From Sphingopyxis panaciterrulae (lineage in GTDB: Bacteria > Pseudomonadota > Alphaproteobacteria > Sphingomonadales > Sphingomonadaceae), in assembly GCF_014199295.1 (NCBI RefSeq), contig NZ_JACIJH010000013.1, forward strand, positions 62,001 to 126,000: a DNA stretch of 64,000 nucleotides, written 5' to 3'. Made by a program: the position numbers and the translations under genes. The notes beneath the pieces were generated by a model that did not search any database, was not told the DNA's origin, and was given only the letters and a program-made list of their open reading frames with translations. Of this stretch, positions 57,201 through 59,416 are shown piece after piece; position 1 is the stretch's first letter; each line of letters opens with the position of its first letter.

Positions 57201-58277
57201 ATGACCAAAGGCAGGCGCCTGGCGCTTTTCGCGCTGCTGATCGTGGCGGTCGCCGCGGCGGCGGCTTTTCTGTTCCAGCGGCCGATCGGCCTGTGGCTGT
57301 TCGAGCGCGCGGCCGAGCGCAATGTCGCGCGCGACCGTCTTGCCGGCCTGCCCGACGGGTTGCATGTCGCGCTTTGCGGCACCGGATCGCCGCTGCCGAG
57401 CCGCGACCGTGCCGGGGCCTGCACCGTCGTCATCGCCGGCAAGGCGATGTTCGTCGTCGATGCGGGCGAAGGCGGCGCGCGCAACATCTCGCTGATGGGA
57501 CTTCCCAATCCCCGCATTCGCGGCCTGTTCCTGACCCATTATCATTCGGACCACATCGACGGCATGGGGCCGATGATGCTGATGCGCTGGGTCGCGAGCG
57601 GCAACAATCGTCCCCTGCCCGTCCATGGCCCCGAAGGGGTCGAGGCGGTGATCGCGGGGTTCAACGCCGCCTATGCCGCCGACAATGGCTATCGCACCGC
57701 GCATCACGGCCCGACCGTCGCGCCGCCGCAGGCCGCGGGCGCGGTCGCCCTGCCCTTTGCGGTGCCGACCGGGCCGACGACCGTCTATCGGGCGGACGGG
57801 CTGACGGTCACCGCCTTTCCGGTCGATCACCGCCCGGTCAATCCGGCGGTCGGCTATCGCTTCGATTACAAGGGGCGCAGCGTCGTGCTCAGCGGCGACA
57901 CCGGCCCCTCGGTCATGGTCGAACGCGCAGCGAAGGGCGCCGACCTGCTGATTCACGAGGCATTGCAGCCCGACATGGTGCAGACGCTGTCGGACGATCT
58001 GAAAGCCGCGGGCCGGACCGGGACCGGGAAGATCATGCACGACATCATCGACTATCACGCCAGCCCGGCGCAGGCGGCCGACAGTGCCCGGCGCGCGGGG
58101 GTGAAGATGCTGGTGCTCAGCCATGTCGTCCCGCCGCTGCCCTCGCGCTATTTCGACGCCGCCTTTCTGGACGGCGCGAAGGGGCATTTCGACGGCCCGC
58201 TGATCATCGGGGAGGACGGGCAGGTCTATTCGCTGCCCGCAGGCAGCACGGCGATCGAGCGGGATAACTGGTTCTAA
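57201..58277 (+). CDS. MBL fold hydrolase with N-terminal membrane anchor
   Basis: The 358-residue product begins with a hydrophobic anchor or signal (LALFALLIVAVAAAAAFLF). It then has a metallo-beta-lactamase fold of the RNase Z/arylsulfatase-like group: CGTGSPLPSRDRAGACTVV, the metal motif THYHSDHIDGMG, the acidic ligand in LSGDTGPS, and later histidines in DYHASP and LSHVVPP. Periplasmic action is likely; the substrate is unknown. Its TAA stop is directly followed by the 58278-58538 repeat element. It is transcribed divergently from the acyl-CoA dehydrogenases and may share their regulation. Confidence 0.88.
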   Translation: MTKGRRLALFALLIVAVAAAAAFLFQRPIGLWLFERAAERNVARDRLAGLPDGLHVALCGTGSPLPSRDRAGACTVVIAGKAMFVVDAGEGGARNISLMGLPNPRIRGLFLTHYHSDHIDGMGPMMLMRWVASGNNRPLPVHGPEGVEAVIAGFNAAYAADNGYRTAHHGPTVAPPQAAGAVALPFAVPTGPTTVYRADGLTVTAFPVDHRPVNPAVGYRFDYKGRSVVLSGDTGPSVMVERAAKGADLLIHEALQPDMVQTLSDDLKAAGRTGTGKIMHDIIDYHASPAQAADSARRAGVKMLVLSHVVPPLPSRYFDAAFLDGAKGHFDGPLIIGEDGQVYSLPAGSTAIERDNWF

Positions 58278-58538
58278 TACCAAGGTGCGGTGATCTTGAC
58301 CGATGAGGATTGCCAGTCCCGCTTGCTGGCGAGGAGGAGCGGAAGCGGCGATGTGGTTCATCGCTGCGACGCGCCGACGCGGTCCAGCGGGCGGGACTGG
58401 CAACCCGGCGGGCGGTTTCTGGCGGCTCTCGGACAGCGTCGCCTGCTTGGGACGATGAACCACATCGTCCCGGTGCAGCCTCCTCGCCGAAAACCGCCAG
58501 AAACCGTCCTCATCGGTCAAGATCACCGCACCTTGGTA
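58278..58538. mobile_element. 261-bp MITE-like element with three stems
   Basis: Two perfect 32-base terminal inverted repeats, beginning TACCAAGGTGCGGTGATCTT, form the outer stem (58278-58309 and 58507-58538). Inside lie two hairpins with perfect 13-base bases, 58310-58403 (TTGCCAGTCCCGC with GCGGGACTGGCAA) and 58413-58506 (CGGTTTCTGGCGG with CCGCCAGAAACCG). Each hairpin has CGATG/CATCG at its tip. No transposase is encoded, and no obvious target-site duplication is seen. The right repeat provides the stop codon of the minus-strand gene. Confidence 0.75.
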
Positions 58539-59416
58539 TGACGCCGCGTCACGACGACCACCGCCCCCTCGCTCGCATAGGCGGAACGCCGTTCGGCGAG
58601 TGCCAGGGTGACCGGCAGGACATCGCCTTCGCGCGTCACCAGTTCGGATGCGATCCGCGCCGGAGCGCCGGTACGGAACAGCGTCTCGAGCGCCTCGGCA
58701 AAGGCGGCGCGGCTGCCGACCGCGAGCAGCGCCGAAAAGCGCACCCGGCGCATCGCGGCCTGATCGGCGCCGGTCATTGCCGCAAGCGCCGGGTTCGCAT
58801 AGTCCACGGCCTCGCGCACCGACAGATGGGCGACGCCGACGGTCGCGTCGGCCTCTATCGCATCGGCGAGTGCGCGCTGCGCATCCTGCTCGGCCAGCGT
58901 GCCCCATAATTCGCTGACGTCGCGCAGCACCATCGCGCCGCCGACCGGCAGCGGGATCAGGTCGACGCGCAGCCATTGCCGCGGAGCGACCAGCCCCGGC
59001 ACCTCGCCCGAAAAGCGCTCGCGATGGTCGAGCATCCGGTGCAGATGCGCGTGCAGGACCGATCCCGCCAGCCCCGGCACCGCCTCGGCCAGCGGCCGGC
59101 GCAGCAGGTCGGATGCGGCGGTTTCGAGCAGGTCCGACGCCGCCGGATTGACCGCGGCGACACAGGCATGCCGGTCGATCAGGATCGCCGCGTCGCGGAT
59201 CGATTCGACCAACGCGGCCTGCGACGCGGCGAGCAGGTCGCCCTCACCCGGGCCGCCGTCGAGGCGTCGATAGTCGGCGAGCGAGATCAGCACATGCGCA
59301 TCCTTTCCGTGATGCGTCACGACCACCGGCGCGCGCGCGGTGCGCAGCCGCCAGCCGGCAAAGCCGCGAATGAAGTCCGCCGCCGAAACGCGCTGGGGGT
59401 CGTGCCGTGACGCCAT
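58523..59416 (-). CDS. Phd/YefM-like domain fused to two PAS domains
   Basis: The 297-residue product begins with about 55 residues that resemble the Phd/YefM antitoxin fold (VSAADFIRGFAGWRLRTARAP, then VVVTHHGKDAHVLISLADYRRL). Two PAS domains follow, about 67-165 (AAILIDRHACVAAVNPAASDLL) and 185-290 (VREAVDYANPALAAMTGADQAAMRR). No kinase, cyclase or toxin partner is adjacent. A sensor that binds DNA through the antitoxin-like domain is an inference. The last codons and stop lie inside the 58278-58538 element, so the C-terminus may have been altered by its insertion. Confidence 0.75.
   Translation of the reverse strand: MASRHDPQRVSAADFIRGFAGWRLRTARAPVVVTHHGKDAHVLISLADYRRLDGGPGEGDLLAASQAALVESIRDAAILIDRHACVAAVNPAASDLLETAASDLLRRPLAEAVPGLAGSVLHAHLHRMLDHRERFSGEVPGLVAPRQWLRVDLIPLPVGGAMVLRDVSELWGTLAEQDAQRALADAIEADATVGVAHLSVREAVDYANPALAAMTGADQAAMRRVRFSALLAVGSRAAFAEALETLFRTGAPARIASELVTREGDVLPVTLALAERRSAYASEGAVVVVTRRHTKVR

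Follow-up and report, generated by a model that had tools for sequence, protein, structure and literature searches.

A probable miniature transposon of Sphingopyxis with a double-hairpin core that recurs between unlike ends

Between two convergent genes of Sphingopyxis panaciterrulae lies an apparently gene-less element of 261 bases that we consider very probably a miniature non-autonomous transposon (MITE), mobilised in trans, most likely by an IS630-family transposase, and carrying a conserved double-hairpin core. The same core is found in related genomes between terminal repeats of other kinds. As judged from the sequences, the core is the conserved part of such elements, and the ends have probably been exchanged, or have diverged, around it. 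Its recurrence between many unlike ends makes the hairpin pair look less like filler than like a structured module that travels. The element was studied in a window, that is, the whole stretch of DNA analysed, comprising 64,000 nucleotides of contig NZ_JACIJH010000013.1 (positions 62,001 to 126,000 of the forward strand; RefSeq assembly GCF_014199295.1).

Structure of the element and its neighbouring genes

The element occupies positions 58278–58538, and its ends are two identical inverted 32-mers (32/32), lying exactly where the first-pass annotation had placed perfect terminal repeats (Table 1). Its predicted RNA fold has an energy of −194.6 kcal/mol (z −14.8), which 0 of 200 shuffles equalled, and the opposite strand folds with a z of −14.7. 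ORFs of at least 83 aa run across the element. The inner hairpins, A and B, had been read earlier as diverged inverted copies, and the comparisons agree: direct alignment of A with B scores 26.8, against a maximum of 15.1 among 500 base shuffles, and two covariance models trained on left-type hairpins alone (R1 and R2, see below) match the right hairpin on the opposite strand, so A and B are related and inverted. In many relatives, the junction has an additional short branch, the linker mini-hairpin.

Table 1. Features of the element and of the adjoining genes in the window
Feature	Position	Strand	Remarks
Left outer arm / terminal inverted repeat	58278..58309	+	reverse complement of 58507-58538
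Right outer arm / terminal inverted repeat	58507..58538	-	identical inverted 32-mer
Hairpin A, 94 nt	58310..58403	+	R2 83 bits (the hairpin itself is an R2 training row); covariation
Linker between hairpins A and B	58404..58411	.	mini-hairpin in many relatives
Hairpin B, inverted homologue of A	58412..58506	-	R2 70 bits at 58412-58507 (-); R1 70 bits
Left TNA flank, TAA, stop codon of left gene	58275..58277	+	
Right TNA flank, TGA	58539..58541	+	
Left neighbour, metallo-beta-lactamase-fold protein	57201..58277	+	PF12706/PF00753; ends TAA 58275-58277
Right neighbour, PAS-domain protein, convergent; final residues encoded by element	58523..59416	-	PF08448/PF00989
TGA within right arm, stop of right-hand gene	58523..58525	-	same arrangement in copies L004 and L006

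The proposal that the element sits between convergent genes and supplies a stop codon held: the TGA of the right-hand gene lies inside the element. The stop of the left-hand gene lies in the three-base flank, outside the element. The window copy (L001), L004 and L006 are alike in that the TNA itself serves as the left stop and the arm TGA as the right one, so that the forward protein would be unaltered and the other protein would gain a short tail ending Thr-Lys-Val-Arg. With genes around the copies called by codon composition only, a forward-gene stop falls exactly at the TNA in 6 of the 17 copies examined; for several others, no gene passed the filter. Three of the six copies in the S. panaciterrulae genome lie between two convergent stops. 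Among 22 loci with other ends and long flanks, five lie between two convergent stops, seven at one stop and ten elsewhere. Near the window copy, neither a T run after a G+C stem nor a promoter-like site was found.

Copies, target repeat and empty sites

Other copies and empty sites, for which the first-pass annotation had proposed to look, were both found. The S. panaciterrulae genome (G000) contains six full copies with 88–100% identity to the window copy, and its 12 ends of the 18-base type (at most 3 mismatches) are all part of these six. Beyond them, a 14-base end pattern occurs in G000 at four single ends, of which C5:87700 is exact and the other three have one mismatch each; no partner end was seen for these four. 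Element ends were detected in 3 of 80 genomes of the genus, the S. panaciterrulae genome included. Full copies outside this genome are present in Sphingopyxis indica DS15, Novosphingobium sp. Fuku2-ISO-50, Blastomonas aquatica, G596 and G728, and the Novosphingobium element is matched in 4 of 397 genomes of the family, including those of S. panaciterrulae and Blastomonas. Four Sinorhizobium megaplasmids carry a degenerate copy, with the right flank alike in 4/4 and the left flank in 3/4. The phage search gave no match to the element, the viral contigs gave one 18-base pattern match with nothing of the element beyond it, and a search of genome contigs for the exact 32-mer gave none. Part of a set of 22 stretches matching the 18-base pattern (in Bacteroidia, Chloroflexi, Pseudomonas, Bacillus, Escherichia, Dyella and similar) looked chance-like by eye and was dropped, and weak matches in four genomes of the genus and six of the class were taken as chance.

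Several copies are rearranged. Hairpin A is inverted in place in copy L006, and copy L101 is a hybrid left by deletion between the hairpins. Arm-only palindromes of 52–53 bases occur in Novosphingobium (L033, perfect; L038 and L042, near-perfect), and another, L043, with one mismatch, in an Erythrobacteraceae MAG.

All six copies in the S. panaciterrulae genome are flanked by TNA on both sides. When deleted and minimal forms are included, 22 window-type copies can be compared, of which 21 have TNA at both ends: the repeats are identical TNA in 15, differ in the middle base in 6 and are non-TNA in 1. The middle base is unlike between the two sides in L001, L003, L005, L038, L089 and L197, though some of these copies are nearly identical.

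At the site of the window copy, five related genomes align across the junction. Three of them (G004, G022 and G007) read, by eye, TAG, that is, three bases in place of the TAA-element-TGA of the window; the form YTAG of this empty site is what an overlap of the two convergent genes at their stop codons would give. The other two, G010 and G021, have longer, unlike sequence there, which we count against the main reading. At the site of copy L006, ten genomes align across, none with the element (0/10), and five of them (G004, G005, G008, G016 and G020) read YYTAAAGC. Twelve element-free loci align across the site of copy L002, where the junction is too unlike for the repeat to be read, and no genome was found to span the sites of copies L003–L005. 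Of the six copies, two thus have empty sites with a junction that can be read, and a third has an empty site without a readable junction. TA as the whole target repeat was considered and rejected: the repeat and the empty site read as a 3-base TNA, TA would require an 8-base empty site, and, as we reason, a TA repeat would leave the ancestor without overlapping stop codons. As published IS630 elements are reported to duplicate TA (PMC2170065), a 3-base TNA is a departure.

IS630-family insertion sequences as candidate partners

Blastomonas aquatica carries an IS630-family insertion sequence (IS) with ends of the window-element kind. The two halves of its transposase match NF033545 at 7.8e-23 and 2.8e-24, each under the whole-protein cut-off of 100 bits, and a DDE_3 match was obtained at 2e-14. 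The DNA of this IS matches 289 plasmid records. Thirteen IS copies were examined, 12 of them nearly full-length and chosen among the plasmid matches listed; TNA-TACCAA stands at both ends in 13/13, and by eye the TNA repeats are identical in 11/13. This count leaves aside L141, a Novosphingobium IS that is cut off by the end of its contig and so lacks its right end. The arms of the Novosphingobium and Blastomonas MITEs resemble the IS ends, mostly the right end, at 76–89% over 26–41 bases. Mobility, a conjecture of the earlier annotation, is thus backed by IS630-type ends, from which we infer transposition.

Several results were counted against this reading. BLAST at E 0.1 did not match the window copy to the IS ends. 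An intact partner IS was not found in the S. panaciterrulae genome, G447, G451, G596 or G728. An autonomous element with window-type ends in the S. panaciterrulae genome was rejected as a candidate, as just the left part of such an IS is present there, and after it comes an ORF carrying a DDE_Tnp_1 domain. Most end types were left without an IS partner in a search that covered four of them: in plasmids, one led to an IS630-type IS, one to chance-like matches only and two to short matches. The productive end type, TAGAGCGTTTTCC, counts in favour: it stands at both ends of another IS630-family IS, whose transposase piece has no BLAST similarity to the first IS transposase. Four further matches from that plasmid search showed no second end, and a plasmid search with one other-end element gave no match.

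Apart from one 15-base match, similarity between the partner IS and the elements is confined to the ends. This match is exact and joins hairpin B of the Blastomonas element with the inside of the IS right end (L085/L187); it may be a hint at the origin of the core, or chance. In the IS630-type IS at L133:2752-3963, the transposase is split between two reading frames close to a run of A, a pattern that resembles programmed frameshifting, and several plasmid copies of the IS are annotated as a single gene of 1061 bases. At L200:1764-1803, a palindrome-like stretch of about 40 bases from IS left-end sequence (TACCAAGGCGCGATGAGCATGACTCATCGCGCCTTGG) adjoins a window-type element, the two sharing a TAA flank. 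The Erythrobacteraceae MAG G490 has ten IS right-end matches at contig ends (L205, L206 and L208–L215), which suggests a high copy number of the IS630-type IS in that genome. On a Martelella plasmid, an apparent minimal palindrome with TAGAGCGTTTTCCGACC ends (L247:1501-1560) represents an arm-only form of another end type.

A core common to elements with other ends

R1, a covariance model of hairpin A, found matches in 14 of 298 genomes of the family. When 14 R1-matched loci with other ends were folded, 11 proved to be two-hairpin elements of 268–277 bases and 3 one-hairpin elements of 162–163 bases; the terminal repeats of these elements are unlike TACCAA. The one-hairpin class (L223, L227 and L228) has its hairpin in common with the two-hairpin class. 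With R2, a broader model used with strict filters, matches came from 77 of the 397 family genomes that were sampled and from 35 of 96 genera; 10 of the 77 genomes had supplied rows to the model.

For the architecture, 107 of the best-scoring R2 places among those listed were taken, of which four were too short, leaving 103. Three of these (L252, L254 and L257) are loci that R1 had also matched, and the flanks of L313 are the same as those of L314. At 89 of the 103 places, in 50 genomes, clear outer ends enclose two large hairpins, averaging 97 and 97 nt; it was alignment and folding, and not R2, that located the ends and the second hairpin. The rest comprise six places with ends and a different inner fold and eight without clear ends. 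The S. panaciterrulae genome itself holds four further elements with other ends (L267, L292, L321 and L324). No match to Rfam 15 was obtained with 10 other-end loci; the window stretch gave two, at E 0.2, far under the gathering scores.

Single linkage of the arms of 95 elements gave 58 rough clusters. A TAGRG-like terminal motif is present at both ends in 34 of the 95, at one end in 42 and at neither in 19. Since this short motif is common to many ends, some of them may be diverged relatives and not exchanges. The outer arms are 93% paired within an element and 57% paired when swapped between elements.

Paired changes and the strand bias of mismatches

The three stems covary, as the first-pass annotation had wished to see checked; with copies in relatives and stems preserved in them, the outcome that would have refuted that annotation did not occur. 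In alignment A2, which holds 14 full copies, 98.1% of cells pair against 89.2% in shuffled alignments, a comparison that favours the structure, as this was derived from the A2 sequences themselves. Both sides change in 33 of 97 pairs (shuffled mean 16.6), none of 500 shuffles reaches any of the five measures, and slid controls drop to 34–48% paired. Copy L006, with its flipped hairpin A, and copies L089 and L101, with deletions, were left out of alignments A1 and A2; Blastomonas was left out of A4 for an insertion, and two of the four degenerate Sinorhizobium copies were kept in A4 and one in A5. Double changes in the outer arms are of transversion type in 11 cases and of transition type in 6. 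Over 15 elements, nine of them with other ends, 28 of the 37 pairs of hairpin A change on both sides. Its internal loop, identified by eye and consisting mostly of tandem G.A mismatches, is retained across end types.

The arms of each stem were also compared under a scoring scheme that gave G-T and A-C equal treatment, and the mismatches were counted as GU:AC (Table 2). The counts are uncorrected for descent. An earlier test on 14 copies had given 23:12 columns (p 0.09) and 37:21 lineage events (p 0.048).

Table 2. GU:AC mismatch counts in the three stems, uncorrected for descent
Elements and positions	Outer	A	B	p for B
74 non-redundant, all positions	61:61	84:19	28:49	0.022
74 non-redundant, outside frequently mismatched positions	33:39	56:15	15:37	0.003
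All 89, all positions	75:73	106:22	34:58	0.016
All 89, outside frequently mismatched positions	38:45	69:17	33:43	0.30

The G-T excess of A may be inflated, since it was an RNA model of A that served to pick the places. The bias of B played no part in the selection of places; it is weak and sensitive to the positions and copies counted. On one strand, A and B are opposite in sign, as would suit a pair of inverted copies in which folding is maintained on the sense strand of each. Judging from this asymmetry, strong in A and weak in B, selection appears to favour folding of each hairpin on its sense strand, whether as RNA or as single-stranded DNA. G-T is a better mismatch than A-C in RNA and DNA alike, so the bias does not separate the two.

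Proposed mechanism and alternative explanations

In the reading that we favour, an IS630-family transposase would recognise TACCAAGG-type ends and act in trans, inserting the element at TNA with a 3-base repeat. The core between the ends consists of two inverted copies of one structured unit of about 95 nt, and each hairpin presumably folds on its sense strand, either in RNA or in single-stranded DNA. Numerous further miniature elements in the family have this core between different ends, which may have been exchanged or have diverged around it. Insertion at overlapping convergent stops would be tolerated, as the flank repeat and the arm supply stops to both genes.

What the core does is a further question. 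Our best guess, and a tentative one, is that it acts as RNA, as a two-faced 3'-end module in which a transcript from either strand would first meet a sense-form hairpin that shields, terminates or insulates the 3' end of whichever gene has the element inserted at its stop. In favour of this, the sense form of A lies on one strand and that of B on the opposite one, the mismatch biases are opposite in sign, convergent stops flank 3/6 copies in the S. panaciterrulae genome and 5/22 other-end copies, and published pneumococcal repeats are reported to be enriched between convergent genes (PMC3049150). However, 10/22 other-end copies are not at a stop, the window copy has no terminator-like T run or promoter-like site near it, and the B bias is weak. 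G-T is, moreover, the better mismatch in DNA too. A bolder version of the RNA reading, which we think rather doubtful, makes the double hairpin a selfish structured module: a mobile two-faced 3'-end cassette that would switch transposon ends, land on convergent stops and give each gene a stop codon and a sense-form RNA hairpin. An ordinary bidirectional intrinsic terminator would suit the position between convergent genes; it was rejected for the lack of a T run after the stem, and the multiple copies, transposon-like ends and empty sites also make it highly improbable.

About as likely as the RNA reading is that the core acts as single-stranded DNA or as a cruciform while the DNA is replicated or transposed, for instance by forming a hairpin that a host or transposon protein recognises, or by raising excision. 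The palindromes do rearrange at the DNA level (the L006 flip, the L101 hybrid deletion and the 52–53 base arm-only palindromes), and the outer arms covary without strand bias and with more transversion-type than transition-type double changes (11 vs 6). Nevertheless, the partner IS copies lack such a core, their similarity to the elements lying at the ends and in one 15-base match, which means that the IS can do without a core, and there is no known binding protein. The flips and deletions fit with the core having no function, its palindromes self-homogenising by template switching and its architecture being inherited from one founder, as do the even GU:AC count of the outer arms (61:61) and the disappearance of the B bias in one count (33:43). 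We regard this as somewhat less likely, since the mismatched internal loops persist across end types, the hairpin length holds near 97 and the A mismatch bias is strong (84:19), though selection of the places by an RNA model may inflate it. A MITE with IS630-type ends around a conserved double-hairpin core is the reading that we retain.

Significance and comparison with known systems

MITEs are often regarded as deletion leftovers with an irrelevant interior. Here, it is the interior that is conserved, constant in size and altered in pairs, and the ends vary, so that what selection acts on in a non-coding mobile element becomes testable. The 89 two-hairpin elements in 50 genomes provide a large natural set of covarying hairpins for finding the protein or process that reads them, and a number of convergent gene pairs would gain a common, mobile 3' end.

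Inverted pairs of related hairpins in intergenic DNA, as in the present element, are also seen in REP/BIME sequences, which are tagged short palindromes with a RAYT transposase. REPs are described as 20–40 bp long (PMC3733652), and by this description they are set apart from the present elements, with their transposon-like ends and target repeats. ISY100 and other IS630-family IS represent the family of the likely partner transposase; for published members, TA duplication is reported (PMC2170065), against TNA here. Titles and abstract openings in the open-licence literature on MITEs and palindromes in Sphingopyxis, Sphingomonas, Sphingomonadales and Novosphingobium, and on IS630 with MITEs, contain no description of the shared core (PMC10969869).

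MITE-like repeats with IS630 partners (RUP) and two-armed repeats (CIR) are already on record (PMC2229807), as are repeats between convergent genes (PMC3049150). The CIR of Caulobacter and Brucella is, like the present element, an alphaproteobacterial intergenic repeat with two long arms and a linker; in the account given in PMC2229807, it is described as being without a 5'-3' end stem, and this description sets it apart from an element with arms plus an outer stem. The Correia/NEMIS repeats of Neisseria resemble the present element as MITEs with 5'-TA ends, and their stem-loop transcript is proposed to affect neighbouring mRNA via RNase III; as described in the same source, they have no homologous inverted hairpin pair and no core common to other ends (PMC2229807). 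Like the window element, the RUP of Streptococcus pneumoniae with IS630-Spn1 is small and non-autonomous, has ends matching an IS630-family IS and a TA-containing target, and is reported to be enriched between convergent genes, where the window copy also lies (PMC2229807, PMC3049150). RUP is, however, given as 107 bp, A+T-rich and simple, whereas the present elements are about 260–275 bp and G+C-rich, and, unlike RUP as published, have two homologous inverted hairpins that covary, a 3-base TNA repeat and a core common to many ends.
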